From Heliocidaris erythrogramma (Eukaryota > Echinodermata > Echinoidea > Camarodonta > Echinometridae), in assembly GCA_025617745.1 (NCBI GenBank), contig CM046857.1, forward strand, positions 23,599,237 through 23,663,236: a stretch of 64,000 bases of DNA, read 5' to 3'. Shown here piece after piece: positions 3,472 to 56,569 of the stretch (its first letter is position 1; every line of letters starts with the position of its first letter). Below the pieces are notes generated by a model. The model saw only the letters and a program-made list of their open reading frames with translations, made no database searches and was not told the origin of the DNA. The translations under genes were made by a program, and so were the position numbers.

Positions 3472-6400
3472 AAAACAGGAGCCATGCAACCAAAATGACG
3501 TCCCAATATACCCAACTGCAAAGCATGTTAACACTTCGCGTTACATTGTAAAACAGTCAATGTGAGATTGAGGTTGTAATTTGAATATTTCCACTTATGA
3601 AACGAGTAAAAATGATGAAAATAATAGAACATGAGAGTATTTATTATACGCGATATCAAGTGGGAAAACACAGGAGGCCAACCAAAATGACGCAGGAGCC
3701 ATGCAACCAAAATGACGTCCCAATATATCCAGCTGCAAAGCATGTTAACACTTTGCGTTACATTGTAAAACAGTCAATGTGAGATTGAGGTTGTAATTTG
3801 AATATTTCCACTTATTAAACGAGTAAAAATGATGAAAATAATAAAACATGAGAGTATTTATTTTACACGAGATATCAAGTGGGAAAACACAGGAGGCCAA
3901 CCAAAATGACGCAGGAGGCCAACCAAAATGACATCCCTTTATACCCAACTGCAAAGCATGTTAAAACTTCACGATACAATGTGAAATAGTCAATGGGAGA
4001 TTGAGGTTGTAATTTGAATATATCCACTTATGAAACGAGTAAAAATGATGAAAAATAATAGAACATGAGATAATTTATTATACGCGATATCAAGTGGGAA
4101 AACACAGGAGGCCAACCAAAATGACGCAGGAGGCCAACTAAAATGACGCAGGAGGCCAACCAAAATGACATCCCTTTATACACAACTGTAAAGCATGTTA
4201 AAACTTCACGATACAATGTGAAATAGTCAATGGGAGATTGAGGTTGTAATTTGAATATTTCCACTTATGAAACGAGTAAAAATGATGAAAATAATAGAAC
4301 ATGAGAGTATTTATTATACACGAGATATCAAGTGGGAAAACACAGGAGGCCAACCAAAATGACGCAGGAGGCCAACCAAAATGACATCCCTTTATACACA
4401 ACTGCAAAGCATGTTAAAACTTCACGATACAATGTGAAATAGTCAATGGGAGATTGAGGTTGTAATTTGAATATATCCACTTATGAAACGAGTAAAAATG
4501 ATGAAAATAATAGAACATGAGAGTATTTATTTTACACGAGATATCAAGTGGGAAAACACAGGAGGCCAACCAAAATGACGCAGGAGGCCAACCAAAATGA
4601 CATCCCTTTATACCCAACTGCAAAGCATGTTAAAACTTCACGATACAATGTGAAATAGTCAATGGGAGACTGAGGTTGTAATTTGAATATATCCACTTAT
4701 GAAACGAGTAAAAATGATGAAAATAATAGAACATGAGAGTATTTATTATACGCGATATCAAGTGGGAAAACACAGGAAGCCAACCAAAATGACGCAGGAG
4801 GCCAACCAAAATGACATCCCTTTATACATAACTGCAAAGCATGTTAAAACTTCACGATACTATGTGAAATAGTCAATAGGAGATTGAGGTTGTAATTTGA
4901 ATATTTCCACTTATGAAACGAGTAAAAATGATGAAAATAATAGAACATGAGAGTATTTATTATACGCGATATCAAGTGGGAAAACACAGGAGGCCAACCA
5001 AAATGACGCAGGAGGCCAACCAAAATGACATCCATTTATACACAACTGCAAAGCATGTTAAAACTTCACGATACTATGTGAAATAGTCAATAGGAGATTG
5101 AGGTTGTAATTTGAATATTTCCACTGATGAAACGAGTAAAAATGATGAAAATAATAGAACATGATAGTATTTATTATACACGAGATATCAAGTGGGAAAA
5201 CACAGGAGGCCAACCAAAATGACGCAGGAGGCCAACCAAAATGACATCCCTTTATACCCAACTGCAAAGCATGTTAAAACTTCACGATACAATGTGAAAT
5301 AGTCAAGAGGAGATTGAGCTTGTAATTTGAATATTTCCACTTATGAAACGAGTAAAAATGATGAAAATAATAGAACACGATAGTATTTATTATACACGAG
5401 ATATCAAGTGGGAAAACACAGGAGGCCAACCAAAATGACGCAGGAGCCATGCAACCAAAATGACGTACCAATATACCCAACTGCAAAGCATTTTAACACT
5501 TTGCGTTACATTGTAAAACAGTCAATGTGAGATTGAGGTTGTAATTTGAATATTTCCACTTATTAAACGAGTAAAAATGATGAAAATAATAGAACATGAG
5601 AGTATTTATTACACGAGATATCAAGTGGGAAAACACAGGAGGCCAACCAAAATGACGCAGGAGGCCAACCAAAATGACATCCCTTTATACCCAACTGCAA
5701 AGCATGTTAACACTTCACGATACAATGTGAAATAGTCAATGGGAGACTGAGGTTGTAATTTGAATATATCCACTTATGAAACGAGTAAAAATGATGAAAA
5801 TAATAGAACATGAGAGTATTTATTATACGCGATATCAAGTGGGAAAACACAGGAGGCCAACCAAAATGACGCAGGAGGCCAACCAAAATGACATCCCTTT
5901 ATACACAACTGCAAAGCATGTTAACACTTCACGATACAATGTGAAATAGTCAATGGGAGATTGAGGTTGTAATTTGAATATTTCCACTAATGAAACGAGT
6001 AAAAATGATGAAAATAATAGAACATGAGAGTATTTATTATACGCGATATCAAGTGGGAAAACACAGGAGGCCAACCAAAATGACGCAGGAGGCCAACCAA
6101 AATGACATCCCTTTATACACAACTGCAAAGCATGTTAAAACTTCACGATACTATGTGAAATAGTCAATAGGAGATTGAGGTTATAATTTGAATATTTCCA
6201 CTGATGAAACGAGTAAAAATGATGAAAATAATACAACATGATAGTATTTATTATACACGAGATATCAAGTGGGAAAACACAGGAGGCCAACCAAAATGAC
6301 GCAGGAGGCCAACCAAAATGACATCCCTTTATACACAACTGCAAAGCATGTTAAAACTTCACGATACAATGTGAAATAGTCAAGAGGAGATTGAGCTTGT

Positions 6401-9400
6401 AATTTGAATATTTCCACTTATGAAACGAGTAAAAATGATGAAAATAATAGAACATGATAGTATTTATTATACACGAGATATCAAGTGGGAAAACACAGGA
6501 GGCCAACCAAAATGACGCAGGAGCCATGCATCCAAATGACGTACCAATATACCCAACTGCAAAGCATTTTAACACTTTGCGTTACATTGTAAAACAGTCA
6601 ATGTGAGATTGAGGTTGTAATTTGAATATTTCCACTTATTAAACGAGTAAAAATGATGAAAATAATAGAACATGAGAGTATTTATTTTACACGAGATATC
6701 AAGTGGGAAAACACAGGAGGCCAACCAAAATGACGCAGGAGGCCAACCAAAATGACATCCCTTTATACCCAACTGCAAAGCATGTTAAAACTTCACGATA
6801 CTATGTGAAATAGTCAATAGGAGATTGAGGTTGTAATTTGAATATTTCCACTGATGAAACGAGTAAAAATGATGAAAATAATATAACATGATAGTATTTA
6901 TTATACACGAGATATCAAGTGGGAAAACACAGGAGGCCAACCAAAATGACGCAGGAGGCCAACCAAAATGACATCCCTTTATACCCAACTGCAAAGCATG
7001 TTAAAACTTCACGATACAATGTGAAATAGTCAAGAGGAGATTGAGCTTGTAATTTGAATATTTCCACTTATGAAACGAGTAAAAATGATGAAAATAATAG
7101 AACATGAGAGTATTTATTATACACGAGATATTAAGTGGGAAAACACAGGAGGCCAACCAAAATGACGCAGGAGCCATGCAACCAAAATGACGTCCCAATA
7201 TATCCAGCTGCAAAGCATGTTAACACTTTGCGTTACATTGTAAAACAGTCAATGTGAGATTGAGGTTGTAATTTGAATATTTCCACTTATTAAACGAGTA
7301 AAAATGATGAAAATAATAGAACATGAGAGTATTTATTTTACACGAGATATCAAGTGGGAAAACACAGGAGGCCAACCAAAATGACGCAGGAGGCCAACCA
7401 AAATGACATCCCTTTATACCCAACTGCAAAGCATGTTAAAACTTCACGATACAATGTGAAATAGTCAATGGGAGACTGAGGTTGTAATTTGAATATATCC
7501 ACTTATGAAACGAGTAAAAATGATGAAAATAATAGAACATGAGAGTATTTATTATACGCGATATCAAGTGGGAAAACACAGGAGGCCAACCAAAATGACG
7601 CAGGAGGCCAACCAAAATGACATCCCTTTATACACAACTGCAAAGCATGTTAACACTTCACGATACTATGTGAAATAGTCAATAGGAGATTGAGGTTGTA
7701 ATTTGAATATTTCCACTTATGAAACGAGTAAAAATGATGAAAATAATAGAACATGAGAGTATTTATTATACGCGATATCAAGTGGGAAAACACAGGAGGC
7801 CAACCAAAATGACGCAGGAGGCCAACCAAAATGACATCCCTTTATACACAACTGCAAAGCATGTTAAAACTTCACGATACTATGTGAAATAGTCAATAGG
7901 AGATTGAGGTTGTAATTTGAATATTTCCACTTATGAAACGAGTAAAAATGATGAAAATAATAGAACATGATAGTATTTATTATACACGAGATATCAAGTG
8001 GGAAAACACAGGAGGCCAACCAAAATGACGCAGGAGGCCAACCAAAATGACATCCCTTTATACACAACTGCAAAGCATGTTAAAACTTCACGATACAATG
8101 TGAAATAGTCAAGAGGAGATTGAGCTTGTAATTTGAATATTTCCACTTATGAAACGAGTAAAAATGATGAAAATAATAGAACATGATAGTATTTATTATA
8201 CACGAGATATCAAGTGGGAAAACACAGGAGGCCAACCAAAATGACGCAGGAGCCATGCAACCAAAATGACGTACCAATATACCCAACTGCAAAGCATGTT
8301 AACACTTTGCGTTACATTGTAAAACAGTCAATGTGAGATTGAGGTTGTAATTTGAATATTTCCACTTATTAAACGAGTAAAAATGATGAAAATAATAGAA
8401 CATGAGAGTATTTATTATACGCGATATCAAGTGGGAAAACACAGGAGGCCAACCAAAATGACGCAGGAGCCATGCAACCAAAATGACATCCCATTATACC
8501 CAACTGCAAAGCATGTTAACACTTTGCGTTACATTGTAAAACAGTCAATGGGAGATTGAGGTTGTAATTTGAATATATCCACTTATGAAACGAGTAAAAA
8601 TGATGAAAATAATAGAACATGAGATAATTTATTATACGCGATATCAAGTGGGAAAACACAGGAGGCCAACAAAAATGACGCAGGAGGCCAACTAAAATGA
8701 CGCAGGAGGCCAACCAAAATGACATCCCTTTATACACAACTGTAAAGCATGTTAAAACTTCACGATACAATGTGAAATAGTCAATGGGAGATTGAGGTTG
8801 TAATTTGAATATTTCCACTTATGAAACGAGTAAAAATGATGAAAATAATAGAACATGAGAGTATTTATTATACACGAGATATCAAGTGGGAAAACACAGG
8901 AGGCCAACCAAAATGACATCCCTTTATACACAACTGCAAAGCATGTTAACACTTCACGATACAATGAGAAATAGTCAATGGGAGATTGAGGTTGTAATAT
9001 GAATATATCCACTTATGAAACGAGTGAAAATGATGAAAATAATAGGACATGAGAGTATTTATTATACACGAGATATCAAGTGGGAAAACACAGGAGGCCA
9101 ACCAAATGACATCCCTTTTTACACAACTGCAAAGCATGTTAACACTTCACGATACAATGTGAAATAGTCAATGGGAGATTGAGCTTGGAATTTGAATATA
9201 TCCTCTTATGAAACGAGTAAAAATGATGAAAATAATAGAACATGATAGTATTTATTATACACGAGATGTCAAGTGAGAAAACAGAGGAGGCCAACCAAAA
9301 TGACATCCCTTTATACCCAACTCCAAAGCATGTTAACACTTTGCGTTACATTGTAAAACAGTCAATGTGAGACTGAGGTTGTAATTTGAATATTTCCACT

Positions 9401-12400
9401 TATTAAACGAGTAAAAATGATGAAAATAATAGAACATGAGAGTATTTATTATATGCGATATCAAGTGGGAAAACACAGGAGGCCAACCAAAATGACGCAG
9501 GAGCCATGCAACCAAAATGACATCCCTTTATACCCAACTGCAAAGCATGTTAACACTTTGCGTTACATTGTAAAAGAGTCAATGGGAGATTGAGGTTGTA
9601 ATTTGAATATATCCACTTATGAAACGAGTAAAAATGATGAAAATAATAGAACATGAGATAATTTATTATACGCGATATCAAGTGGGAAAACACAGGAGGC
9701 CAACAAAAATGACGCAGGAGGCCAACTAAAATGACGCAGGAGGCCAACCAAAATGACATCCCTTTATACACAACTGTAAAGCATGTTAAAACTTCACGAT
9801 ACAATGTGAAATAGTCAATAGGAGATTGAGGTTGTAATTTGAATATATCCACTCATGGAACGATTAAAAATGATGAAAATAATAGAAGATGAGAGTATTT
9901 ATTATACACGAGATATCAAGTGGGAAAAGACAGGAGGCCAACCAAAATGACATCCCTTTATACACAGCTGCAAAGCATGTTAAAACTTCACGATACAATG
10001 AGAAATAGTCAATGGGAGATTGAGGTTGTAATATGAATATATCCACTTATGAAACGAGTGAAAATGATGAAAATAATAGGACATGAGAGTATTTATTATA
10101 CACGAGATATCAAGTGGGAAAACACAGGAGGCCAACCAAATGACATCCCTTTTTACACAACTGCAAAGCATGTTAACACTTCACGATACAATGTGAAATA
10201 GTCAATGGGAGATTGAGCTTGGAATTTTAATATATCCACTTATGAAACGAGTAAAAATGATGAAAATAATAGAACATGATAGTATTTATTATACACGAGA
10301 TGTCAAGTGAGAAAACACAGGAGGCCAACCAAAATGACATCCCTTTATACCCAACTCCAAAGCATGTTAACACTTTGCGTTACATTGTAAAACAGTCAAT
10401 GTGAGATTGAGGTTGTAATTTGAATATTTCCACTTATTAAACTAGTAAAATGATGAAAATAATAGAACATGAGAGTATTTATTTTACACGAGATATCAAG
10501 TGGGAAAACACAGGAGGCCAACCAAAATGACGCAGGAGGCCAACCAAAATGACATCCCATTATACCCAACTGCAAAGCATGTTAAAACTTCACGATACTA
10601 TGTGAAATAGTCAATAGGAGACTGAGGTTGTAATTTGAATATATCCACTTATGAAACGAGTAAAAATGATGAAAATAATAGAACATGAGAGTATTTATTA
10701 TACGCGATATCAAGTGGGAAAACACAGGAGGCCAACCAAAATGACGCAGGAGGCCAACCAAAATGACATCCCTTTATACATAACTGCAAAGCATGTTAAA
10801 ACTTCACGATACTATGTGAAATAGTCAATAGGAGATTGAGGTTGTAATTTGAATATTTCCACTTATGAAACGAGTAAAAATGATGAAAATAATAGAACAT
10901 GAGAGTATTTATTATACGCGATATCAAGTGGGAAAACACAGGAGGCCAACCAAAATGACATCCATTTATACACAACTGCAAAGCATGTTAAAACTTCACG
11001 ATACTATGTGAAATAGTCAATAGGAGATTGAGGTTGTAATTTGAATATTTCCACTTATGAAACGAGTAAAAATGATGAAAATAATACAACATGATAGTAT
11101 TTATTATACACGAGATATCAAGTCGGAAAACACAGGAGGCCAACCAAAATGACGCAGGAGGCCAACCAAAATGACATCCCTTTATACACAACTGCAAAGC
11201 ATGTTAAAACTTCACGATACAATGTGAAATAGTCAAGAGGAGATTGAGCTTGTAATTTGAATATTTCCACTCATGAAACGAGTAAAAATGATGAAAATAA
11301 TAGAACATGATAGTATTTATTATACACGAGATATCAAGTGGGAAAACACAGGAGGCCAACCAAAATGACATCCGTTTATACACAACTGCAAAGCATGTTA
11401 ACACTTCACGATACAATGTGAAATAGTCAATGGGAGATTGAGGTTGTAATTTGAATATATCCACTTATGAAACGAGTAAAAATGATGAAAATAATAGAAC
11501 ATGATAGTATTTATTATACACGAGATATCAAGTGGGAAAACACAGGAGGCCAACCAAAATGACGCAGGAGGCCAACCAAAATGACATCCCTTGATACACA
11601 ACTGCAAAGCATGTTAACACTTCACGATACAATGTGAAATAGTCAATGGGAGATTGAGGTTGTAATTTTAATATATCCACTTATGAAACGAGTAAAAATG
11701 ATGAAAATAATAGAACATGATAGTATTTATTATACACGAGATATCAAGTGGGAAAACACAGGAGGCCAACCAAAATGACATCCCTTTATACCCAACTGCA
11801 AAGCATGTTAACACTTCGCGTTACATTGTAAAACAGTCAATGTGAGATTGAGGTTGTAATTTGAATATATCCACTTATGAAACGAGTAAAAATGATGAAA
11901 ATAATAGAACATGAGAGTATTTATTTTACACGAGATATCAAGTGGGAAAACACAGGAGGCCAACCAAAATGACGCAGGAGGCCAACCAAAATGACATCCC
12001 TTTATACCCAACTGCAAAGCATGTTAAAACTTCACGATACAATGTGAAATAGTCAATGGGAGATTGAGGTTGTAATTTGAATATATCCACTTATGAAACG
12101 AGTAAAAATGATGAAAATAATAGAACATGATAGTATTTATTATACACGAGATATCAAGTGGGAAAACACAGGAGGCCAACCAAAATGACGCAGGAGGCCA
12201 ACCAAAATGACATCCCTTTATACACAACTGCAAAGCATGTTAAAACTTCACGATACAATGTGAAATAGTCAATGGGAGATTGAGGTTGTAATATGAATAT
12301 ATCCACATATGAAACGAGTGAAAATGATGAAAATAATAGAACATGAGAGTATTTATTATACACGAGATATCAAGTGCGAAAACACAGGAGGCCAACCAAA

Positions 12401-14452
12401 ATGACGCAGGAGGCCAACCAAAATGACATACCTTTATACCCAACTGCAAAGCATGTTAAAACTTCACGATACAATGTGAAATAGTCAATGTGAGATTGCG
12501 GTTGTAATTTGAATATATCCACTTATTAAACGAGTAAAAATGATGAAAATAATAGAACATGAGAGTATTTATTATATGCGATATCAAGTGGGAAAACACA
12601 GGAGGCCAACCAAAATGACGCAGGAGCCATGCAACCAAAATGACATCCCTTTATACCCAACTGCAAAGCATGTTAACACTTTGCGTTACATTGTAAAAGA
12701 GTCAATGGGAGATTGAGGTTGTAATTTGAATATATCCACTTATGAAACGAGTAAAAATGATGAAAATAATAGAACATGAGATAATTTATTATACGCGATA
12801 TCAAGTGGGAAAACACAGGAGGCCAACAAAAATGACGCAGGAGGCCAACTAAAATGACGCAGGAGGCCAACCAAAATGACATCCCTTTATACACAACTGT
12901 AAAGCATGTTAAAACTTCACGATACAATGTGAAATAGTCAATAGGAGATTGAGGTTGTAATTTGAATATATCCACTTATGAAACGAGTAAAAATGATGAA
13001 AATAATAGAACATGAGAGTATTTATTATACACGAGATATCAAGTGGGAAAACACAGGAGGCCAACCAAAATGACATCCCTTTATACACAGCTGCAAAGCA
13101 TGTTAAAACTTCACGATACAATGAGAAATAGTCAATGGGAGATTGAGGTTGTAATATGAATATATCCACTTATGAAACGAGTGAAAATGATGAAAATAAT
13201 AGGACATGAGAGTATTTATTATACACGAGATATCAAGTGGGAAAACACAGGAGGCCAACCAAATGACATCCCTTTTTACACAACTGCAAAGCATGTTAAC
13301 ACTTCACGATACAATGTGAAATAGTCAATGGGAGATTGAGCTTGGAATTTTAATATATCCACTTATGAAACGAGTAAAAATGATGAAAATAATAGAACAT
13401 GATAGTATTTATTATACACGAGATGTCAAGTGAGAAAACACAGGAGGCCAACCAAAATGACATCCCTTTATACCCAACTCCAAAGCATGTTAACACTTTG
13501 CGTTACATTGTAAAACAGTCAATGTGAGATTGAGGTTGTAATTTGAATATTTCCACTTATTAAACTAGTAAAATGATGAAAATAATAGAACATGAGAGTA
13601 TTTATTTTACACGAGATATCAAGTGGGAAAACACAGGAGGCCAACCAAAATGACACAGGAGGCCAACCAAAATGACATCCCTTTATACCCAACTGCAAAG
13701 CATGTTAAAACTTCACGATACAATGTGAAATAGTCAATGGGAGATTGAGGTTGTAATTTGAATATATCCACTTATGAAACGAGTAAAATGATGAAAATAA
13801 TAGAACATGATAGTATTTATTAATCACGAGATATCAAGTGGGAAAACACAGGAGGCCAACCAAAATGACGCAGGAGGCCAACCAAAATGACATCCCTTTA
13901 TACACAACTGCAAAGCATGTTAAAACTTCACGATACAATGTGAAATAGTCAATGGGAGATTGAGGTTGTAATATGAATATATCCACATATGAAACGAGTG
14001 AAAATGATGAAAATAATAGAACATGAGAGTATTTATTATACACGAGATATCAAGTGCGAAAACACAGGAGGCCAACCAAAATGACGCAGGAGGCCAACCA
14101 AAATGACATACCTTTATACCCAACTGCAAAGCATGTTAACACTTCACGATACAATGTGAAATAGTCAATGGGAGATTGAGGTTGTAATTTGAATATATCC
14201 ACTTATGAAACGAGTAAAAATGATGAAAATAATAGAACATGAGAGTATTTATTATACACGAGATATCAAGTGGGAAAACACAGGAGGCCAACCAAAATGA
14301 CGCAGGAGGCCAACCAAAATGACATCCCTTTATACACAACTGCAAAGCATGTTAAAACTTCACGATACAATGTGAAATAGTCAATGGGAGATTGAGGTTG
14401 TAATTTGAATGTATCCACTAATGAAACGAGTAAAAATGATGAAAATAATATA
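3472..14452. repeat. 216-bp satellite array (about 51 units) with 22-bp subrepeat
   Basis: Head-to-tail units share the anchors GGAGGCCAACCAAAATGAC, GCAAAGCATGTTAA, AGATTGAGGTTGTAATTTGA, AAACGAGTAAAAATGATGAA and AGAACATGAGAGTATTTATT. The usual period is 216 bp. Units of about 194 and 238 bp differ by losing or gaining one copy of a 22-bp subrepeat (CAGGAGGCCAACCAAAATGACG register). Some units carry a variant box with GAGCCATGCAACCAAAATGACG. The minus strand holds a ~69-codon open frame in most units. Because 216 is a multiple of 3 and the units are homogenised, I read this as a by-product and not a gene. Private variants recur at fixed distances of 1034, 1680 and 3123 bp, which marks segmental copying inside the array. 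Confidence 0.97.
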
Positions 14453-26662: not shown

Positions 26663-27195
26663 AAGGGGGTGGGGATAACGCCGTTTGCAAGGATCAAAAT
26701 ATATTTAGTTTTCACTTTTTAAAATTCCATTTTAACGGAGGGAGGGGGGGGGGGGGGAGTCCTTGGACTTCATCGTTACTCCTTTTACTTTAATTTCAGT
26801 CATTGCTAAACATGCCTAAAAAGATTTGCACTTGTCAGATATTTGGGTGCATGCTGAAAAGATTAAACCATTAATACCTGATGAAAAAGTAACATATGTG
26901 TTCCATATTTGGCAACTTTATACTGATTCCAGTATCTAGTTCTTCATATTGTTTTATTTTAGGCTGATTTTCATGAATAATATGTTTTGAAATCTGTACT
27001 TAAGTCATCAAAAGATACGGCCATGAAAAACAGAGAATTGCCTGCTCATTGCTATGCATTTCGGGTACAAAGGATTCAAGGTGTTAAAAGAGAGAGAGCG
27101 AAAGAGAAATGCATCATTGCCTCATTTCAAAGTTAGCACACTGTAGTCTGTCTCGAACGTAAGGGTCAAAGTCCATAATGACAATATTATAGTGT
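26429..27195 (+). repeat. 0.96-kb tandem array, segment 3
   Basis: Starts with the second copy of the TGTTCCAT target site and runs through one shortened unit. In that unit the two (GA)n tracts appear to have recombined, so the sequence jumps from the AAAACAGAG block straight to the GATAACGCC block. The rest of a further unit follows, up to TATAGTGT, where the Gypsy element is inserted. Confidence 0.93.
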
Positions 27196-27649
27196 TGTAG
27201 TATTTTCCTCATCCTCACTTCATCTTTTCTTTAATTTCTCACTTTCACTTATTTTACAAAGTCATTTTGAGAGGACATTGCCCTTTATACCAGAAGTCAC
27301 TACCACCCCTATGTTATCACATTTATCTATCAACAAGTGGTCAGCTGCATGGCCATATCGCCATGCCCATCGCACATTAGTGACTCGCCCTCAATTCAAG
27401 GATTTTCAACAATACTCCCTTTCTTCTTCATCCTGCCACACTAGCAAGGGATAAGACAAACACTTTTCATCTCCATCTTTGCTAGACAGACTTCTCAAGG
27501 TTTTCTCATCGAGTTAACACGTAAATTTGAGGATGTCATTCCTGCACTTCAATTGGAGCAATTTCTACAATTCTCTACTTCACATTCTATACTCCATCAT
27601 CTCACCTGGAGGAATTTCTATTTCATCATTTTATTCTCAGCAATTCACT

Positions 27650-28680
27650 TAGCCTCTTGTCGAGGCCCTGGCGCTGTTGAAATCCTTGGCGGCAAACCGA
27701 GGCGCTTGCGCCGAGGGCCTCTTGACACCCGACCTGAATTATATATTCATGAGGCACGATTTCCTACTGAATTATGCATGAAACGTGAATAGTTAGATAA
27801 CCGCGGCGATCGCCCAGCAAATTGGCCAATGAAATCTCAAGGATTTCTTACTTCAGTTCTGGACTAGTCTATTATTTTTTTGGGGGGGATTACGTAAATC
27901 TATTGCTCAAAATACATTCACAGACAAGCACATTATGAAGAATTCGATCTCTAGCTTACAAACCATGGTAATTTGAAATAAGACAAATGTACATATTTCT
28001 CAAGAGATCATCATATATTTACAAATAATGAAGAATGGGCAATAAAAGTCACCGTTCAACAATAGATGTATCTCCATCAATTCTGATGTAACCAAGGAGT
28101 TACCAGCAACTTCACTGCCCGGCCAGGCCCCGGGGGATCCGCCTGGCCTAGGCCCTAGCATAGCTCGCGAATTCAAAGCAGCTAGCAGTCTCACTATCCA
28201 TCCCTGGCCCACGGAGGTAATCAGCACAGAGCGGTAGCGCGTGAAAAATAACACTTTTTCCATAGCCAGTAGGCAGATTCACAAAAACATCTTGTCCTTT
28301 AAGTGCAGATTTGATTGCATCAACTTGCAAATCTTTGAATCTGTCAATCTTCAACATTCTAGCGGCATATTCTAAGCTCTTACAAATATCGTCATCACTC
28401 GTCGTGGAAGAAACGTTGAACGCCATTTTGGGCTAGCGTGCAGTCGAGTCATGAATATTTAACATTACGTCATGGTAGCTCGCGCTTATTGGATGATTTT
28501 CACCGACCAAAATTTGGTCGGAATATTCGTCAAAACAATGAAATACAAAAGAAATTCAGATCAGGTGTCAAGAGGCCCTCGGCGCAAGCGCCTCGGTTTT
28601 GCTGGCTCGCTTCGCTCGCCAGAAATTTTGCCTCCATATCGCCAAGGATTTCAACAGCGCCAGGCCTCGACAAGAGGCTA
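27650..28680. mobile_element. 1031-bp TIR transposon carrying a helicase fragment, 9-bp TSD
   Basis: The LTR sequence CAATTCACT is duplicated on both sides (27641-27649 and 28681-28689), and the 3' LTR keeps the uninterrupted site. The ends TAGCCTCTTGTCGAGGCC...TGGCGCTGTTGAAATCCTTG are inverted repeats that stretch about 100 bp; the right arm (28560-28680) has about 35 extra bases (CTGGCGAGCGAAGCGAGCCAG region). Inside is a minus-strand RecQ-like N-terminal segment starting shortly after the right arm. A 9-bp TSD with long TIRs suits Mutator-like elements. A helicase-coding TIR element also suits the AcademH group, which I recall as encoding an SF2 helicase with 9-10-bp TSDs (unchecked). It has no transposase and is therefore non-autonomous. 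Confidence 0.85.
28148..28426 (-). pseudogene. RecQ-type DNA helicase N-terminal fragment
   Basis: Starting from an ATG at 28424-28426, the frame encodes about 70 residues of a RecQ-like superfamily 2 helicase start. There is the F-x4-Q pattern of the Q motif (RFKDLQVDAIK, residues 29-39), then GQDVFVNLPTGYGKS (residues 44-58) with Walker A PTGYGKS, then VIFHALPLCADYL. After about residue 71 the helicase-like sequence ends; the rest (GPGMDSETASC...) is unrelated, and motifs Ia to VI, including the DExH box, are absent. A full RecQ core needs about 350 residues, so this cannot unwind DNA. It sits just inside the right TIR and reads away from it, as expected for the first exon of a transposon gene or a captured host exon. 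It is not part of the Gypsy element. Confidence 0.82.
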
Positions 28681-28877
28681 CAATTCACTCAGAGAACAAT
28701 CCAAATTCTCGCTTGTGCTAGCCAAGTAGTTTTGTGATCATTTCTGCGGTGATACCTGTGTAAATATATATTTGAATCGGATTGTGCAATATTTGGAAGC
28801 ATTCATCCTTCGTCATATTGTTTTCATTTATTGTCACCCTTTACTTCATATATCTACGTGCCATTTCAACTGTCACA

Positions 28878-35233: not shown

Positions 35234-35246
35234 AGGAGGGGGCTGA
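35234..35246 (+). promoter_or_regulatory. Polypurine tract
   Basis: AGGAGGGGGCTGA directly before the TGTAG of the 3' LTR is the expected plus-strand priming site. Confidence 0.75.
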
Positions 35247-35923
35247 TGTAGTATTTTCCTCATCCTCACTTCATCTTTTCTTTAATTTCTCACTTTCACT
35301 TATTGTACAAAGTCATTTTGAGAGGACATTGCCCTTTATACCAGAAGTCACTACCACCCCTATGTTATCACATTTATCTATCAACAAGTGGTCAGCTGCA
35401 TGGCCATATCGCCATGCCCATCGCACATTAGTGACTCACCCTCAATTCAAGGATTTTCAACAATACTCCCTTTCTTCTTCATCCTGCCACACTAGCAAGG
35501 GATAAGAACAAACACTTTTCATCTCCATTTTTGCCAGACAGACGTCTCAAAGTTTTCTCATCGAGTTAACACGTAAATTTGAGGATGTCATCCCTGCACT
35601 TCAATTGGAGCAATTTCTACAATTCTCTACTTCACATTCTATACTCCATCATCTCACCTGGAGGAATTTCTATTTCATCATTTTATTCTCTGCAATTCAC
35701 TCAGAGAACAGTCCAAATCTCGCTTGTGCTAGCCAAGTAGTTTTGTGATCATTTCTGTGGTGATACCTGTGTAAATATATATTTGAATCGGATTGTGCAA
35801 TATTTGGAAACTTTTGGCATTTTGGAGGATCCATGTCCGGTTAACCCCTGCACGCATAAAGTCGGTAAGTGGTGATTGCTTCTTATTCCCATCTCGCCTT
35901 ATAAGTAGCGACCAACCGCTACA
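35247..35923 (+). repeat. 3' LTR (complete, 677 bp)
   Basis: Runs from TGTAG to CTACA with perfect 5-base inverted ends and abuts the GTGT target duplication. The last 114 bases have no partner in the 5' copy. They contain a GTAAGT donor-like site at 35865-35870, so element transcripts could have been spliced from the U5 region. Confidence 0.9.
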
Positions 35924-40979: not shown

Positions 40980-41011
<32 letters not shown>

Positions 41012-42179
41012 AATGCATCATTGCCTCATTTCAAAGTTGGCACACTGTAGTCTGTCTCCAACGTAAGGGTCAAAGTCCATAATGACAATATTATAGTGTA
41101 AAAGCACTTCAGTTCATTCTGCTGAAATTGTGCTATATACTACTACTTGTAAAAGTTTATTATGTTTCTTTATTTCCAAATTTTAAGTGGAGCAGAAGAA
41201 AATTCAACACTAAGAGATTTTTCACGTCTATTTCTTCAGCATAGCATGCAAAAAGGCAAGTAGCCCTCGTGTGTTTTCCTTTTACAACGGATTCAGCATT
41301 ATGAGGAACACGGAAAAGGGAGTGTTATAAAGTTTTCGCGTAATTACAATGTCGTGAATCTTAGCCTCCCTCTTCCGATAAATTTTAATATCTATCGATC
41401 AGAAAGATTTGTTGTTGTTGTTGTTGTTGTTTTTTTTTTGGGGGGGGGGGAAGGTATCAAGCTGAAGAGAATGCTAGAGAGAGAGAGAGAGATAGAGAGA
41501 GAAAGAATGTGAGAGTGAGAGAATGCTAGAGAGAGAGAGAGAGAGAAAGACTGTGAGAGTGAGTGAGCGAGAGAGAAGAGCGGGGGGGGGGGGGGGGGGG
41601 GGGGGAGGGATAGCGCCGGTTTGCAAGGATTAAAAAAATAAATCTAGTTTTCACTTTCTTTAATTTCATTTCTAAGGGGGAGCCCTTGGACTCCATCGTT
41701 ACGCCTTTTACTTTAATTTCAGTCATTGCCAAACATGCATACAAATGATTTGCAATTGTCAGATATTTGGGTGCATGCTGAAAAGTTTAAACCATTAATA
41801 CTTGGTGAAAAAGCAACATATGTGTTCCATATTCGGCAACTTTATACTGATTCCAGTATCTAGTTCTTCATATTGTTTCAATTTAGGCTGATTTTCATGA
41901 ATAATATATGTTTTGAAATCTGTACTTAAGTCATCAAAAGATACGGCTATGAAAAACAGAGAATTGCCTGCTCATTGCTATGCATTTCGGGTACAAAGGA
42001 TTCAAGGTGTTAAAAGGGAGAGAGAGAGAGAGAAATGGGTCATTGCCTCATTTCAAAGTTGGCACACTGTAGTCTGTCTCGAACGTAAGGGTCAAAGTCC
42101 ATAATGACAATATTATAGTGTAAACATAATAATACATGTGCACTTCAGTTCATTCTGCTGAAATTGTGCTATATACTAC
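39845..42179 (+). repeat. 0.96-kb tandem array, segment 5
   Basis: About two and a quarter units, resuming at ATATATGTGCACTTCAG. These are A-type units that keep the ATAAAGTTTTCGCGTAATTA stretch. The first unit holds the 209-bp MITE. The segment ends in ATACTAC, the target site of the 2.9-kb element. Confidence 0.93.
40677..40885. mobile_element. 209-bp palindromic MITE, TA TSD
   Basis: A near-perfect palindrome: both ends begin CACTCTAAAAACTAAA, and the arms stay alike for about 100 bases (ATTTAAAAGGGCCGAGGAGT, GACCAC, GGCAGAT). TA lies on both sides, and intact units elsewhere read TCTGTACTTAAGTCATC at this place. Its end resembles that of the 506-bp MITE at 20618. TA duplication and end shape point to the Tc1/mariner group. 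Confidence 0.92.
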
Positions 42180-42229
42180 CAAAGACTTTAAATAGTATCA
42201 AGACAGATCACTCTGACCTACTTCCGTAG

Positions 42230-43625
42230 TACATTTTGGAGGCATACTTTGCTGTGTTAAAAACAGACTCGGAAAAATACGTTCTCCATAGGCATAACAC
42301 GTGAAAAGATGTCTCACTTTTTCTTGATATTTCATATCTTACTCTATCTTTTTCAAGTCTGATTTTTGCACGAGAAAAAGGATGGATAGTTAAAAAAACA
42401 TTTCTTGAACCCTTTTGTCAATAAATGCCGATATGAATCCCTTGGATCATGCCTGCTTTTTGACAAAGTCATCTGCCATAGGGTTAACACGTGAAAACAT
42501 GGATTTTAAAAATGATTATAGTTCCTCTAGTATTACCTTGAATTTAGTGCAAATGTGGCTTACATGTAATTTGAGACTCTGAAAAGGCTTAATGAAGGCT
42601 CAAAAGGTGCAAGGGACCCCGCATAAATCCCCGGGAATATGCATGCTTTTGGCCTTCCATTTCCCATAGGTTAACACGCAAAAACGGGAATTTTAGAATG
42701 ATTATAATTCCCGCAGAATTAAATCAAAATTTTGAAAAATGTGCCTTGAATAAAATTTAAAGCTCTGAAAATGTATAATTAAGACTCAGCTAGTTGAATA
42801 GACCCCGCATAAATCCCCGGGAATATGCATGCTTTTTACCCAATAAAAGTCTCTCCTGCCATAGGTTTACACGCGAAAACAAGGAATTTTAGGATGATTA
42901 TAATTCCCATAATTTTTATTTGAAAATATAAAAAACGTGATTTAGATAAAATTTAAAGCTCTGAAAAGGTATAATGAAGGCTTGATGAGTCCAGTAAACC
43001 CCCATAAATCCCCGGGAATATGCATGCTTTTGACCAAAAACGTCTCGCCTGTCATAGGTTAACACGCAAAAACAAGGAATTTTAGGGTGATTATAATTCC
43101 CATAATTTTTCTTTGAAAATGTAAAAAATGTGATTTACATGAAATTTAAAGCTCTGATAAGGTATAATGAAGGCTTGGTGAGTCCAGTAAACCCCCCATA
43201 AATCCCCGGGAATATGCATGCTTTTGGCCTTCCAGCTCCCATAGGTTAACACATGAAAACAGGTGTTTTGAAATGATTTTAATTCCCCTAGTATTTATTT
43301 GAAATTATGAAAAATGTGATTTACATGAAATTTAAAGCTCTGAAAGGGTATAATTGAGGATCGATGAGTCCAATAAACCCCCCATAAATCCCCGGGAATA
43401 TGCATACTTTTGGCCTTCCAGCTCCCATTGGTTAACACATCAAAACAGGGGTTTTGAAATGATTTTAATTCCCCTAGTATTTATTTGAAATTAGGAAAAA
43501 TGTGATTTACATGAAATTTAAAGCTATGGAAGGGTATAATTGAGGCTCGGTGAGTCCAATAAACCCCGCACAAATCCCGGGAATATGCATGCTTTCGACC
43601 AAAAAAAATAATTTGCCATACTACA
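42230..43625 (+). repeat. ~190-bp satellite inside the 2.9-kb element
   Basis: Units are anchored by TCCCCGGGAATATGCATGCT, CCATAGGTTAACACG, GAATTTTAGGATGATTATAA and AAATTTAAAGCTCTGAAA. The TGCAT positions 42640, 42826, 43021, 43215, 43401 and 43586 give periods of 185-195 bp. Two leftmost units (about 42230 and 42430) are much more diverged, so homogenisation has worked mainly on the right side. Confidence 0.92.
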
Positions 43626-44100
43626 CGTGCATTCCAATTTGTTATCGATGACCTAATGTAAATGGGCGTGTACCGATCACGTGAGTGACGACATCCAATG
43701 AGATCGTGCACTAGCAGACGACCATGTAGCAGACGTACGTCCACCCGAAAGCAAACCCAACCTAGCCGGTTAGAAGAAAATCTAACTAAATTCCAGTTCA
43801 CTACTATATTTCTAATGTACCAGAGGCAAAATTCAATGTGTTAAATTCATAAATTCGTATCATCAATGTTCTATCACCGCATTACGCATAGCCTAATGGC
43901 TGATGTTCATGCAAGCAGCATGGAATAGCTGAGCAGAATAGGTGCATGGACATGATAGGTCTCTAGCACTAGCCTCTGCGATCCCGATCGAGGTGGTGGC
44001 GTTGCCGATGATATGTCAGTTTGCCAAAACTTGGCTCATCAAGGTTTTTTTGCTTGCTGTTCGTTGTTTGCTTGTCTTTGGTACCGAGAGACCGACAATG

Positions 44101-44151
<51 letters not shown>

Positions 44152-45044
44152 TGGCAATTTTTTTCTTCTCGCCAGCCCTCCGAAAGTCGCTCAGTGGAGG
44201 GGTGGAGGGTATCAGATATTATTAGTCCAGTTTTCCTCCATAATTCTCTGACAAGCCAAAGAAGTTATCAGTTCTAAAAGGGGGATACAATTTTATTTTA
44301 TTTTTTTTTGTTCCAATTGCTTTATTTTTACTGTTTGTTTTTGTTGAGGGTTTTTGTTGTGTTTTTTTTTTGCTCAGTGATTTTTTTTTAAAATCATGTA
44401 AATCACTTGTAATTGTGATTTCTGTTGATTTCCTAATAAAAACACAAATTATAAAAATAAGACATCATTATTTTTTTTCCAATTCTATTGGAGTCATTTT
44501 TACAGATCTGTTGTAAGAGAGAAAAGAGAGTATGAGAAAAATGAGGGGGGAGAGACAAAGAGAGATGGGGGCAAAAGTAATGGGATATTCCTACAAAGAC
44601 AGAATAGGAGAGGGGGAGGCTCACGCCTGACGAACAAAAAAATAATCAGATGCATTCTATTTTGAATTTTTAGAACAAGCAAGGAAGAAATTATCAGTTT
44701 TTAGATTCTTTCTGTGCGGGGGGGGGGGGGGGGGGGTACACATTTCCTTTCATATTATTTTTTTCTTCAGATTCTTCAGATTCCGTTTTGGCTGGCACAT
44801 AGGGGCATGTACATTCCTGGATAATCTTGGATACGCCACTCTTAATGTAATCTTTATATTTATATAAGGCTTTACCAAAAGGCAAAAACGATGTCCAGAA
44901 AAAGAAGAAAAAATAAAGAAAATAAAAATTTACAAACATCTTGATTAAGACTATAAACTTTCCCTCTCGGCCGATCGACGTGTACCACAATATATACGCG
45001 TACTTTATTTCGGCACTGAGCACTCTTCGTATTTAAACTCTTTG
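43626..45044. other. Right part of the 2.9-kb element
   Basis: Non-coding. It holds (GT)n plus a G-run (44104-44152), T-rich stretches at 44295-44380, a G-run near 44718 and a TCTTGGATACGCCACTC scrap at 44825-44840. The minus-strand frame 43481-43801 shows no domain. Confidence 0.55.
44104..44152. repeat. (GT)n microsatellite and G-run
   Basis: About 16 GT repeats run directly into about 17 G. Confidence 0.95.
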
Positions 45045-46776
45045 ATACTACTACTTGTAAAAGTTTATTATGTTCCTTTATTTCCAAATTTTGAGTGGAG
45101 CAGAAGAAAATTCAACACTAAGAGATTTTTCACGTCTATTTCTTCAGCATAGCATGCAAAAAGGCAAGTAGCCCTCGTGTGTTTTCCTTTTTATACAACG
45201 GATTCAGCATTATGAGGAACACGGAAAAGGGAGTGGGATAAAGTTTTCGCGTAATTACAATGTCGTGAATCTTAGCCTCCCTCTTCCGATAAATTTAATA
45301 TCTATCGATCAGAAAGATTTGTTGTTGTTGTTGTTGTTGTTTTTTTTTGAGAGATAGAGAGAGAGAGAGACTGTGAGAGTGAGTGAGCGAGGGAGAAGAG
45401 CGGGGGGGGGGGGGGGGAGGGATAGCGCCGGTTTGCAAGGATTAAAAAAATAAATCTAGTTTTCACTTTCTTTAATTTCATTTCTAAGGGGGGAGCCCTT
45501 GGACTCCATTGTTACGGCTTTTACTTTAATTTCAGTCATTGCCAAACATGCATACAAATGATTTGCCATTGTCAGATATTTGGGTGCATGCTGAAAAGTT
45601 TAAACCATTAATACTTGGTGAAAAAGCAACATACGTGTTCCATATTTGGCAACTTTATACTGATTCCAGTATCTAGTTCTTCATATTGTTTTAATTTAGG
45701 CTGATCTTCATGAATAATATATGTTTTGAAATCTGTACTTAAGTCATCAAAAGATACGGCCATGAAAAACAGAGAATTGCCTGCTCATTGCTATGCATTT
45801 CGGGTACAAAGGATTCAAGGTGTTAAAAGAGAGAGAGAGAGAGAGAAAGAGAGAAATGCATCATTGCCTCATTTCAAAGTTGGCACACTGTAGTCTGTCT
45901 CCAACGTAAGGCTCAAAGTCCATAGTGACAATATTATAGTGTAAACATAATAATATATGTGCACTTCAGTTGATTCTGCTGAAATTGTGTTATATACTAC
46001 TACTTGTAAAAGTTTATTATGTTCCTTTATTTCCAAATTTTAAGTGGAGCAGAAGAAAATTCAACACTAAGAGATTTTTCACGTCTATTTCTTCAGCATA
46101 GCATGCAAAAAGGCAAGGAGCCCTCGTGTGTTTTCCTTTTACAACGGATTCAGCATTATGAGGAACACGGAAAAGGGAGTGGGTGTCGTGAATCTAAGCC
46201 TCCCTCTTCCGATAAATTTAATATCTATCGATCAGAAAGAATTTGTTGTCGTTTTTTTTTTTGGGGGGGGGGGGTGGGGAAGGTATCAAGCTGAAGAGAA
46301 TGCTAGAGAGAGAGAGAGAGAGAAAGACTGTGAGAGTGAGTGAGCGAAAGAGAAGAGCGGGGGGGGGGGGGGGGGGAGGGATATCACCGGTTTGCAAGGA
46401 TTAAAAAAATAAATCTAGTTTTCACTTTCTTTAATTTCATTTCTAAGGGGGGAGCCCTTGGACTCCATCGTTACGCCTTTTACTTTAATTTCAGTCATTG
46501 CCAAACATGCATACAAATGATTTGCAATTGTCAGATATTTGGGTGCATGCTGAAAAGTTTCAACCATTAATACTTGGTGAAAAAGCAACTTGTGTGTTCC
46601 ATATTTGGCAACTTTATACTGATTCCAGTATCTAGTTCGTCATATTAGGCTGATCTTCATGAATAATATATGTTTTGAAATCTGTACTTCAGTCATCAAA
46701 AGATACGGCCATGAAAAACAGAGAATTGCCTGCTCATTGCTATGCATTTCGGGTACAAAGGATTCAAGGTGTTAAA

Positions 46777-46813
<37 letters not shown>

Positions 46814-47260
46814 AATGCATCATTGCCTCATTTCAAAGTTGGCACACTGTAGTCTGTCTCCAACGTAAGGGTCAAAGTCCATAATGACAATATTATAGTG
46901 TAAACATAATAATATATGTGCACTTCAGTTGATTCTGCTGAAATTGTGTTATATACTACTACTTGTAAAAGTTTATTATGTTCCTTTATTTCCAAATTTT
47001 AAGTGGAGCAGAAGAAAATTCAACACTAAGAGATTTTTCACGTCTATTTCTTCAGCATAGCATGCAAAAAGGCAAGTAGCCCTCGTGTGTTTTCCTTTTA
47101 CAACGGATTCAGCATTATGAGGAACACGGAAAAGGGAGTGGGTGTCGTGAATCTAAGCCTCCCTCTTCCGATAAATTTAATATCTATCGATCAGAAAGAA
47201 TTTGTTGTCGTTTTTTTTTTGGGGGGGGGGTGGGGAAGGTATCAAGCTGAAGAGAATGCT

Positions 47261-47292
<32 letters not shown>

Positions 47293-48696
47293 AGAGTGAG
47301 TGAGCGAAAGAGAAGAGCGGGGGGGGGGGGGGCGGGGAGGGATATCACCGGTTTGCAAGGATTAAAAAAATAAATCTAGTTTTCACTTTCTTTAATTTCA
47401 TTTCTAAGGGGGGAGCCCTTGGACTCCATTGTTACGGCTTTTACTTTAATTTCAGTCATTGCCAAACATGCATACAAATGATTTGCCATTGTCAGATATT
47501 TGGGTGCATGCTGAAAAGTTTAAACCATTAATACTTGGTGAAAAAGCAACATACGTGTTCCATATTTGGCAACTTTATACTGATTCCAGTATCTAGTTCT
47601 TCATATTGTTTTAATTTAGGCTGATCTTCATGAATAATATATGTTTTGAAATCTGTACTTAAGTCATCAAAAGATACGGCCATGAAAAACAGAGAATTGC
47701 CTGCTCATTGCTATGCATTTCGGGTACAAAGGATTCAAGGTGTTAAAAGAGAGAGAGAGAGAGAGAAAGAGAGAAATGCATCATTGCCTCATTTCAAAGT
47801 TGGCACACTGTAGTCTGTCTCCAACGTAAGGCTCAAAGTCCATAGTGACAATATTATAGTGTAAACATAATAATATATGTGCACTTCAGTTGATTCTGCT
47901 GAAATTGTGTTATATACTACTACTTGTAAAAGTTTATTATGTTCCTTTATTTCCAAATTTTAAGTGGAGCAGAAGAAAATTCAACACTAAGAGATTTTTC
48001 ACGTCTATTTCTTCAGCATAGCATGCAAAAAGGCAAGGAGCCCTCGTGTGTTTTCCTTTTACAACGGATTCAGCATTATGAGGAACACGGAAAAGGGAGT
48101 GGGTGTCGTGAATCTAAGCCTCCCTCTTCCGATAAATTTAATATCTATCGATCAGAAAGAATTTGTTGTCGTTTTTTTTTTTTGGGGGGGGGGGTGGGGA
48201 AGGTATCAAGCTGAAGAGAATGCTAGAGAGAGAGAGAGAGAGAAAGACTGTGAGAGTGAGTGAGCGAAAGAGAAGAGCGGGGGGGGGGGGGGGGGGAGGG
48301 ATATCACCGGTTTGCAAGGATTAAAAAAATAAATCTAGTTTTCACTTTCTTTAATTTCATTTCTAAGGGGGGAGCCCTTGGACTCCATCGTTACGCCTTT
48401 TACTTTAATTTCAGTCATTGCCAAACATGCATACAAATGATTTGCAATTGTCAGATATTTGGGTGCATGCTGAAAAGTTTCAACCATTAATACTTGGTGA
48501 AAAAGCAACTTGTGTGTTCCATATTTGGCAACTTTATACTGATTCCAGTATCTAGTTCGTCATATTAGGCTGATCTTCATGAATAATATATGTTTTGAAA
48601 TCTGTACTTCAGTCATCAAAAGATACGGCCATGAAAAACAGAGAATTGCCTGCTCATTGCTATGCATTTCGGGTACAAAGGATTCAAGGTGTTAAA

Positions 48697-48731
<35 letters not shown>

Positions 48732-49177
48732 AATGCATCATTGCCTCATTTCAAAGTTGGCACACTGTAGTCTGTCTCCAACGTAAGGGTCAAAGTCCAT
48801 AATGACAATATTATAGTGTAAACATAATAATATATGTGCACTTCAGTTGATTCTGCTGAAATTGTGTTATATACTACTACTTGTAAAAGTTTATTATGTT
48901 CCTTTATTTCCAAATTTTAAGTGGAGCAGAAGAAAATTCAACACTAAGAGATTTTTCACGTCTATTTCTTCAGCATAGCATGCAAAAAGGCAAGTAGCCC
49001 TCGTGTGTTTTCCTTTTACAACGGATTCAGCATTATGAGGAACACGGAAAAGGGAGTGGGTGTCGTGAATCTAAGCCTCCCTCTTCCGATAAATTTAATA
49101 TCTATCGATCAGAAAGAATTTGTTGTCGTTTTTTTTTGGGGGGGGGGTGGGGAAGGTATCAAGCTGAAGAGAATGCT

Positions 49178-49209
<32 letters not shown>

Positions 49210-50593
49210 AGAGTGAGTGAGCGAAAGAGAAGAGCGGGGGGGGGGGGGGGGCGGGGAGGGATATCACCGGTTTGCAAGGATTAAAAAAATAAATCTAGTT
49301 TTCACTTTCTTTAATTTCATTTCTAAGGGGGGAGCCCTTGGACTCCATTGTTACGCCTTTTACTTTAATTTCAGTCATTGCCAAACATGCATACAAATGA
49401 TTTGCAATTGTCAGATATTTGGGTGCATGCTGAAAAGTTTCAACCATTAATACTTGGTGAAAAAGCAACATGTGTGTTCCATATTTGGCAACTTTATACT
49501 GATTCCAGTATCTAGTTCTTCATATTGTTTTAATTTAGGCTGATCTTCATGAATAATATATGTTTTGAAATCTGTACTTCAGTCATCAAAAGATACGGCC
49601 ATGAAAAACAGAGAATTGCCTGCTCATTGCTATGCATTTCGGGTACAAAGGATTCAAGGTGTTAAAAGAGAGAGAGAGAGAGAGAAATGCATCATTGCCT
49701 CATTTCAAAGTTGGCACACTGTAGTCTGTCTCCAACGTAAGGGTCAAAGTCCATAGTGACAATATTATAGTGTAAACATAATAATATATGTGCACTTCAG
49801 TTGATTCTGCTGAAATTGTGTTATATACTACTACTTGTAAAAGTTTATTATGTTCCTTTATTTCCAAATTTTAAGTGGAGCAGAAGAAAATTGAACACTA
49901 AGAGATTTTTCACGTCTATTTCTTCAGCATAGCATGCAAAAAGGCAAGTAGCCCTCGTGTGTTTTCCTTTTACAACGGATTCAGCATTATGAGGAACACG
50001 GAAAAGGGAGTGGGTGTCGTGAATCTAAGCCTCCCTTTTCCGATAAATTCAATATCTATCGATCAGAAAGAATTTTTTTTTTTTTTTTTGGGGGGGGGTG
50101 GGGAAGGTATCAAGCTGAAGAGAATGCTAGAGAGAGAGAGAGAGAAAGACTGTGAGAGTGAGTGAGCGAAAGAGAAGAGCGGGGGGGGGGGGGGAGGGAT
50201 ATCACCGGTTTGCAAGGATTAAAAAAATAAATCTAGTTTTCACTTTCTTTAATTTCATTTCTAAGGGGGGAGCCCTTGGACTCCATCGTTACCCTTTTAC
50301 TTTAATTTCAGTCATTGCCAAACATGCATACAAATGATTTGCAATTGTCAGATATTTGGGTGCATGCTGAAAAGTTTCAACCATTAATACTTGGTGAAAA
50401 AGCAACATATGTGTTCCATATTTGGCAACTTTATACTGATTCCAGTATCTAGTTCGTCATATTAGGCTGATCTTCATGAATAATATATGTTTTGAAATCT
50501 GTACTTCAGTCATCAAAAGATACGGCCATGAAAAACAGAGAATTGCCTGCTCATTGCTATGCATTTCGGGTGCAAAGGATTCAAGGTGTTAAA

Positions 50594-50643
<50 letters not shown>

Positions 50644-51567
50644 GCATCATTGCCTCATTTCAAAGTTGGCACACTGTAGTCTGTCTCCAACGTAAGGGTC
50701 AAAGTCCATAATGACAATATTATAGTGTAAACATAATAATATATGTGCACTTCAGTTGATTCTGCTGAAATTGTGTTATATACTACTACTTGTAAAAGTT
50801 TATTATGTTCCTTTATTTCCAAATTTTAAGTGGAGCAGAAGAAAATTCAACACTAAGAGATTTTTCACGTCTATTTCTTCAGCATAGCATGCAAAAAGGC
50901 AAGTAGCCCTCGTGTGTTTTCCTTTTACAACGGATTCAGCATTATGAGGAACACGGAAAAGGGAGTGGGTGTCGTGAATTTTAGCCTCCCTCTTCCGATA
51001 AATTTAATATCTATCGATCAGAAAGAATTTGTTGTTGTTTTTTTTTGGGGGGGGGGGGGGGGTGGGGAAGGTATCAAGCTGAAGAGAATGCTAGAGAGAG
51101 AGAGAGAGAGAAAGACTGTGAGAGTGAGTGAGCGAAAGAGAAGAGGGGGGGGGGGGGAGGGATATCACCGGTTTGCAAGGATTAAAAAAATAAATCTAGT
51201 TTTCACTTTCTTTAATTTCATTTCTAAGGGGGGAGCCCTTGGACTCCATCGTTACGCCTTTTACTTTAATTTCAGTCATTGCCAAACATGCATACAAATG
51301 ATTTGCAATTGTCAGATATTTGGGTGCATGCTGAAAAGTTTCAACCATTAATACTTGGTGAAAAAGCAACATATGTGTTCCATATTTGGCAACTTTATAC
51401 TGATTCCAGTATCTAGTTCTTCATATTGTTTTAATTTAGGCTGATCTTCATGAATAATATATGTTTTGAAATCTGTACTTAAGTCATCAAAAGATACGGC
51501 CATGAAAAACAGAGAATTGCCTGCTCATTGCTATGCATTTCGGGTACAAAGGATTCAAGGTGTTAAA

Positions 51568-51606
<39 letters not shown>

Positions 51607-52532
51607 AATGCATCATTGCCTCATTTCAAAGTTGGCACACTGTAGTCTGTCTCCAACGTAAGGGTCAAAGTCCATAATGACAATATTATAGTGTAAACAT
51701 AATAATATATGTGCACTTCAGTTGATTCTGCTGAAATTGTGTTATATACTACTACTTGTAAAAGTTTATTATGTTCCTTTATTTCCAAATTTTAAGTGGA
51801 GCAGAAGAAAATTCAACACTAAGAGATTTTTCACGTCTATTTCTTCAGCATAGCATGCAAAAAGGCAAGTAGCCCTCGTGTGTTTTCCTTTTACAACGGA
51901 TTCAGCATTATGAGGAACACGGAAAAGGGAGTGGGTGTCGTGAATTTTAGCCTCCCTCTTCCGATAAATTTAATATCTATCGATCAGAAAGAATTTGTTG
52001 TTTTTTTTTTTTTTTTTTGGGGGGGGGGGTGGGGAAGGTATCAAGCTGAAGAGAATGCTAGAGAGAGAGAGAGAGAGAAAGACTGTGAGAGTGAGTGAGC
52101 GAAAGAAAAGAGGGGGGGGGGGAGGGATATCACCGGTTTGCAAGGATTAAAAAAATAAATCTAGTTTTCACTTTCTTTAATTTCATTTCTAAGGGGGGAG
52201 CCCTTGGACTCCATCGTTACGCCTTTTACTTTAATTTCAGTCATTGCCAAACATGCATACAAATGATTTGCAATTGTCAGATATTTGGGTGCATGCTGAA
52301 AAGTTTCAACCATTAATACTTGGTGAAAAAGCAACATATGTGTTCCATATTTGGCAACTTTATACTGATTCCAGTATCTAGTTCTTCATATTGTTTTAAT
52401 TTAGGCTGATCTTCATGAATAATATATGTTTTGAAATCTGTACTTAAGTCATCAAAAGATACGGCCATGAAAAACAGAGAATTGCCTGCTCATTGCTATG
52501 CATTTCGGGTACAAAGGATTCAAGGTGTTAAA

Positions 52533-52569
<37 letters not shown>

Positions 52570-54053: not shown

Positions 54054-54087
<34 letters not shown>

Positions 54088-54534: not shown

Positions 54535-54569
<35 letters not shown>

Positions 54570-56050: not shown

Positions 56051-56084
<34 letters not shown>

Positions 56085-56534: not shown

Positions 56535-56569
<35 letters not shown>

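Follow-up and report, generated by a model that had tools for sequence, protein, structure and literature searches.

The element and its insertion site

In a 64,000-nt stretch of the genome of the sea urchin Heliocidaris erythrogramma (hereafter the window), positions 27650-28680 are occupied by a DNA transposon of 1,031 bp, which is bounded by terminal inverted repeats (TIRs) of approximately 90 bp and carries the beginning of a RecQ-type helicase gene. Three paired arms make up the TIRs: a perfect 18-bp end (TAGCCTCTTGTCGAGGCC; 27650-27667 and 28663-28680), a further perfect arm of 25 bp (27667-27691 and 28640-28664) and a third one of 47 bp, which matches at 96% (27694-27740 and 28553-28599); the pairing was also done on the consensus of the copies described below. 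The left TIR, on the non-helicase side, runs on the plus strand from 27650 to 27740, its outer part comprising 42 bp (27650-27691), and the right TIR, on the helicase side, lies on the minus strand at 28553-28680 with its outer part at 28640-28680. The gap between the outer and inner arms measures 40 bp on the helicase side as compared to 2 bp on the other. Both extreme ends contain a terminal palindrome, GCCTC-ttgtc-GAGGC (28663-28680 on the minus strand, also at 27650-27667).

Between the TIRs, the interior of the non-helicase side (27741-28111, limits approximate) is followed by a G+C-rich spacer (28112-28207, limits approximate) just beyond the helicase homology, and by an open frame of 92 codons on the minus strand (28148-28426), residues 1-72 of which (28426-28211) correspond to a RecQ N-terminus according to Pfam, PDB and homology searches. 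No transposase-like frame was noticed in 27741-28111 when the listed open reading frames of at least 25 amino acids were inspected by eye. The spacer varies in length among copies, although per-column agreement elsewhere in these copies is mostly 97-100%.

An exact 9-bp target-site duplication (TSD), CAATTCACT, flanks the element on both sides (27641-27649 and 28681-28689). The insertion interrupts the 5' LTR of an LTR element on the plus strand (27193-28798, in the pieces 27193-27649 and 28690-28798), and if the flanks are joined over one CAATTCACT, they align across the junction at 97.7% with the uninterrupted 3' LTR of the same LTR element (35244-35809, plus strand). This 3' LTR therefore represents the empty site, and the window copy of the transposon is thus younger than the LTR element. 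Both the TIR transposon with its exact 9-bp TSD and the uninterrupted site in the 3' LTR had been described in the original prediction, made from the letters of the window, and are borne out by the 18-bp ends, the duplication and the alignment through the junction. As to the surroundings, a stretch of ~96 bp beside the 5' LTR (27100-27195) recurs 14 times at 41004-56657 of the window, in lengths of 93-96 bp and mostly 950-1030 bp apart, and long tandem arrays with a unit of ~216 bp (variants of 194 and 236 bp) are found at 3487-14450.

Copies in the genome and their target sites

Copies were searched for in the genome of H. erythrogramma itself (1.064 Gb, 26 contigs). The DNA search yielded many full-length copies (the best 40 of 907 first-look candidates were scored), and the exact 18-mer end occurs 603 times in forward and 615 times in reverse orientation, as against 0/0 for a backward-read control, so that the ends cannot be ascribed to chance. 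The short form is thus present in roughly 600 copies with intact ends. The first 100 of the 1,218 end positions gave 40 end pairs, 27 of them 900-1150 bp long, with a median of 1,030 bp and extremes of 152 bp and 26 kb.

From the best 40 DNA matches of the 907 candidates, a sample biased towards intact copies, 28 copies were fetched, all of them with both ends; the TSD is an exact 9 bp in 24 and carries one mismatch in four. As L007 and L008 share one insertion site, these copies represent 27 distinct sites, among which the nine positions show no fixed letters. In 14 further insertions, one of them a 545-bp copy that lies inside another (L070), the TSD is exact in ten, has one mismatch in one and is not in register in three, although it should be noted that L075 shows the same nine letters as L025 and the two may not be independent. 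The three cases out of register speak against a family of uniformly intact copies: the duplication of L067 seems displaced by a single base, a matching one is lacking in L068 and L091, and the interior of L091 is partly duplicated. Altogether, 34 of the 42 insertions have an exact TSD, five have one mismatch and three have none in register. The expectation that such TIRs with 9-bp TSDs exist elsewhere in the genome (603 + 615 ends, 39 of 42 insertions) has therefore been confirmed. In the nested case (L070:1232-2818), a copy sits within a copy of the same family, each with its own exact 9-bp TSD.

Divergence from the majority consensus is low, with a median of 0.97% in the 28 copies and 0.29% in the window copy, and the family is probably young, which points to recent transposition, as judged from copies chosen among the best matches. 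With ~1 kb in length, TIRs, a near-uniform TSD, hundreds of near-identical copies and neither a transposase nor any working gene, the family resembles MITEs and other internal deletion derivatives. It differs from MITEs in that part of the coding sequence of a helper gene is still recognisable, in addition to TIR-adjacent DNA.

The helicase fragment and its larger relatives

The 92-aa frame matches the Pfam DEAD profile at 6.9e-6 (26.3 bits, just above the cut-off of 26) as well as the PDB chains of RECQ1 and BLM at 1.2e-5 to 5.5e-5, the latter over residues ~22-69 including the Walker A motif TGYGKS; no helicase match was found for the residues beyond 72. The earlier description of a RecQ N-terminus with Walker A that then breaks off agrees with these profile results. 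Matches that reach residue 92 in L067, L069-L071, L074 and L075 proved to be chance alignments in the G+C-rich spacer.

With the transposon helicases of three groups of loci, the fragment shares 42-48% identity over 56-73 aa (up to 68.6 bits), as compared to 34.3 bits with the best host RecQ exon seen. The motif TG(F/Y)GKSV(V/I)F is found in undecayed transposon copies, TG(G/A)GKSLCYQ in the host-like exons on C12 and C15, the latter being the same as in human RECQ1. In the phylogenetic tree, the fragment is placed on the transposon-helicase side of a branch with 98/99 support, apart from the host RecQ; this tree contains nine short rows and 72 columns, three of its six internal branches remain open and one of the host rows is filled to 35% only, and it therefore serves as a check of type only. 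The comparison with the host RecQ genes thus supports a fragment of the transposon type rather than of the host type. An intron seems to lie close to the end position of the fragment in a degraded related family, and the fragment may accordingly represent a whole first exon.

RecQ loci were collected with the profile TIGR00614 (best 37 of 828 candidates scored) and by a protein search with a transposon helicase (61 of 61 candidates scored, 48 rows). Two of the elements found, L060 (7,263 bp) and L061 (6,628 bp), belong to one family with TAGTCCA ends; their TSDs, GCTCCGATC and TGCTTCGCA, are exact 9-bp repeats, and a degraded RecQ gene starts ~700 bp inside one end. Both also show a direct duplication of ~190 bp in the helicase region. 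An element of 12.9 kb on C17, bounded on either side by TAGTCCA, reaches from TAGTCCACTG to TGGACTA and is flanked by a TSD that agrees in 8 of 9 letters (TATCACCGC/TATCACCCC). Two of its frames, read as exons, encode RecQ (DEAD 2.3e-12, Helicase_C 1.8e-16). DUF6589 frames (7.3e-22 and 2.4e-8) lie convergent to these on the other strand, where a first exon resembling zf-AD (9.7e-5, below the cut-off) and a weak match to C2H2 were also noted. We infer that the DUF6589, zf-AD-like and C2H2 frames form one gene, and the DUF6589 protein would be the putative transposase. DUF6589 lies within 15 kb of RecQ rows at seven loci (10 of 34 rows; 0.05 expected), and the other 24 of 34 rows have no RecQ row within that distance; DUF6589 is hence not confined to helicase elements. 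A text search of the literature for DUF6589 gave no match. A helicase start inside one TIR is common to the window element and the related larger elements.

A second kind of short derivative is apparently represented by L076 (C11), L077 (C21) and 14 more rows. L076 and L077 are 97-98% identical to DNA beside a zf-AD-like exon, which is situated ~5 kb from the RecQ frame of C4, and all 16 rows, two of which were fetched, contain a frame of 74-75 aa of the zf-AD-like exon.

An autonomous element with TAGCCTCTTG ends was not found in a search covering the first 100 of the 1,218 end positions, and such a copy may accordingly lie elsewhere in the genome. Longer copies between the same TIRs, in which a helicase and a transposase were to be looked for, do exist, but as far as fetched the over-long end pairs of 26 kb, 5.8 kb and 3.0 kb contain foreign DNA and neither of the missing genes. 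In the first, of which the ends were fetched, a large insertion has split a short copy between positions 145 and 150 of the consensus; in the second, the spacer of a short copy has received 4.75 kb of inserted DNA, and the third is a short copy holding other repeats. The split copy (C1:6120891-6146922; L087, L088) has a matching TSD, GGAGCGGCG, and its insertion of ~25 kb, which is associated with a 6-bp overlap of the consensus, may be a Maverick/Polinton, judging from size and duplication. Exon 1 or the upstream DNA was viewed by sequence at 14 RecQ loci (C17, C14, C6, three on C1, C19, two on C2, C16, C7, C12, C10 and C9) of the 48 RecQ rows, and the C4 locus was judged from its search row. 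Among the loci examined, the fragment is matched over length at 48% at best; 74-78% is reached over 18-19 aa only, in one degraded family, and no exon 1 was recognised in the fetched stretch at C19, C16 and C7. A chimeric query for a full-length copy listed short copies and the helicases of C17, C14, C6 and C4.

The palindrome at the tip follows a layout that can be found at other ends as well: 1-2 bases from the tip, a stem of 5-6 bp is followed by exactly 5 nt and the complementary stem. Three end sequences show it, namely GCCTC-GAGGC in the window family, GCCTT-AAGGC in a second short family and AGTCCA-TGGACT at the helicase-side end of the TAGTCCA elements; the letters differ, the pairing is kept. 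The second short family is represented by an element of 829 bp (L082:1512-2340) with related ends (TAGCCTTTTGACAAGGCC) and an exact 9-bp TSD (AAGTCACAC), which adjoins, upstream, the helicase start of another RecQ locus. Random TAG ends scanned in the same way gave a stem of at least 5 in 2.8% and of at least 6 in 0.6% of trials. Caution should be taken when counting these cases: the helicase-side ends of L060 and C17 are identical in their first 19 letters and were counted once, and the stems of the two short families differ little, so that three end sequences amount to fewer than three independent cases. At their opposite ends, the C17 and L060 elements lack the palindrome, which, with three end sequences compared, argues against its generality. 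That the RecQ helicase opens the ends, and that the palindrome, being capable of folding into a hairpin, then forms a structure which is recognised or cut, tying the helicase to the 9-bp staggered joining, would be a possible but rather doubtful scenario; a plainer alternative would be a protein dimer binding the palindrome in its double-stranded form.

Probable affinity with AcademH transposons

We consider the element to be a non-autonomous, MITE-like derivative of an AcademH-type DNA transposon, with a probability of roughly 0.88. The cited passages of PMC10045372 give 9- or 10-bp TSDs and an encoded helicase for AcademH and 3- or 4-bp TSDs for AcademX, and relate these lengths to the helicase and nuclease encoded. 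Here, 39 of 42 insertions have a 9-bp TSD, unlike AcademX, and the duplications of the related elements agree in 9 of 9 letters in two and in 8 of 9 in one; the RecQ helicase is represented by the N-terminal 72 aa in the window and by DEAD and Helicase_C in a related element. A RecQ-type (SF2) helicase, 9-bp TSDs, TIRs and animals among the hosts are shared with AcademH, whereas a transposase and the greater part of the helicase are missing from the window copy; the assignment is based on published statements of TSD length and helicase content. In the parts cited, PMC3627910 refers to an earlier account of a RecQ helicase in Academ, and PMC10799480 includes AcademH, KolobokH and Helitron among the sources of helicase domains in fungi. 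The original prediction, which had offered a deletion derivative of an AcademH-like helicase transposon as one of two explanations, is in this respect supported by the type of the fragment and by the larger TAG-ended helicase elements with 9-bp TSDs. Its statement that such an element would be noteworthy in an animal genome is overstated, as AcademH has already been published from animals and fungi, to judge from a title (Kojima 2020) in the reference list of PMC10045372. Our literature text search for an Academ MITE of sea urchin with transposase returned no match, and AcademH was absent from the matches listed by a broader one.

The history of the element may be pictured as follows. In the ancestor, a RecQ-type helicase gene would have begun inside one TIR, an arrangement observed in related families, and a transposase gene convergent with it would have begun inside the other, as does the putative transposase gene of one related family. 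Deletion of the interior would have left both TIRs, the 5' region of the helicase gene and its first coding part, and the short form would then have been amplified by enzymes acting in trans to its roughly 600 intact-ended copies. Insertion proceeds via a staggered cut, as reflected in the 9-bp TSD, and the window copy entered the LTR element after the latter was in place.

The second of the two explanations originally offered, a Mutator-like element that captured the first exon of a host RecQ gene as an animal counterpart of the plant Pack-MULEs, appears improbable. TIRs, a 9-bp TSD and an internal gene fragment are shared with Pack-MULEs, long TIRs together with 9-bp TSDs fit MuDR (9-bp TSDs of MuDR-like elements are given in the cited part of PMC3627910), and the search for an autonomous copy with the same ends was negative among the first 100 of the 1,218 end positions. 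The fragment, however, groups with transposon-encoded helicases and starts inside the TIR as in the related larger elements, so it is of the transposon helicase type and not a captured host exon; with 34 bits for the best host exon against 69 bits for the best transposon helicase, the capture was rejected.

Kolobok elements produce a TSD of TTAA. The duplication here is 9 bp long without a fixed motif at 27 distinct sites, on which ground a KolobokH-type or another helicase-bearing superfamily other than Academ was rejected as very improbable, even though KolobokH encodes a RecQ helicase, as does one rhodophyte Kolobok; the cited part of PMC9587614, from which this is taken, reports KolobokH from fungi only.

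Equally far-fetched is the idea that selection maintains the truncated RecQ frame in the short copies as a small functional protein or a repressor. At first sight, the openness of the frame in many copies speaks for it: of the 150 rows scored among 1,090 candidates, 146 agree with the fragment at 82% or above, and a stop is listed in only seven. Ranking these rows by protein score, however, gave preference to intact frames, and the openness is explained by the youth of the copies. Over 73 codons in 28 copies, 22 distinct nonsynonymous changes (one of them a stop) stand against nine synonymous ones, a ratio of 2.44 as compared to 2.55 expected without selection (assumed transition weight of 4), and nine of the 28 copies have an indel in the helicase frame. 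Selection was rejected on these grounds; in the 28 copies the helicase fragment is a passenger in neutral drift, with no function for the element.

The window family is most likely a further member of the short derivatives of AcademH-like helicase transposons, and in an animal genome, a helicase-bearing cut-and-paste lineage would thereby have produced a short repeat that is present in roughly 600 copies with intact ends. Since the short copies have a near-uniform 9-bp TSD without a working helicase of their own, the geometry of joining would be set by enzymes supplied in trans. With its RecQ and DUF6589/zf-AD frames, the complete-looking element on C17 lends itself as a concrete candidate to a transposition assay, and it suggests what DUF6589, a Pfam family of unknown function, may do.
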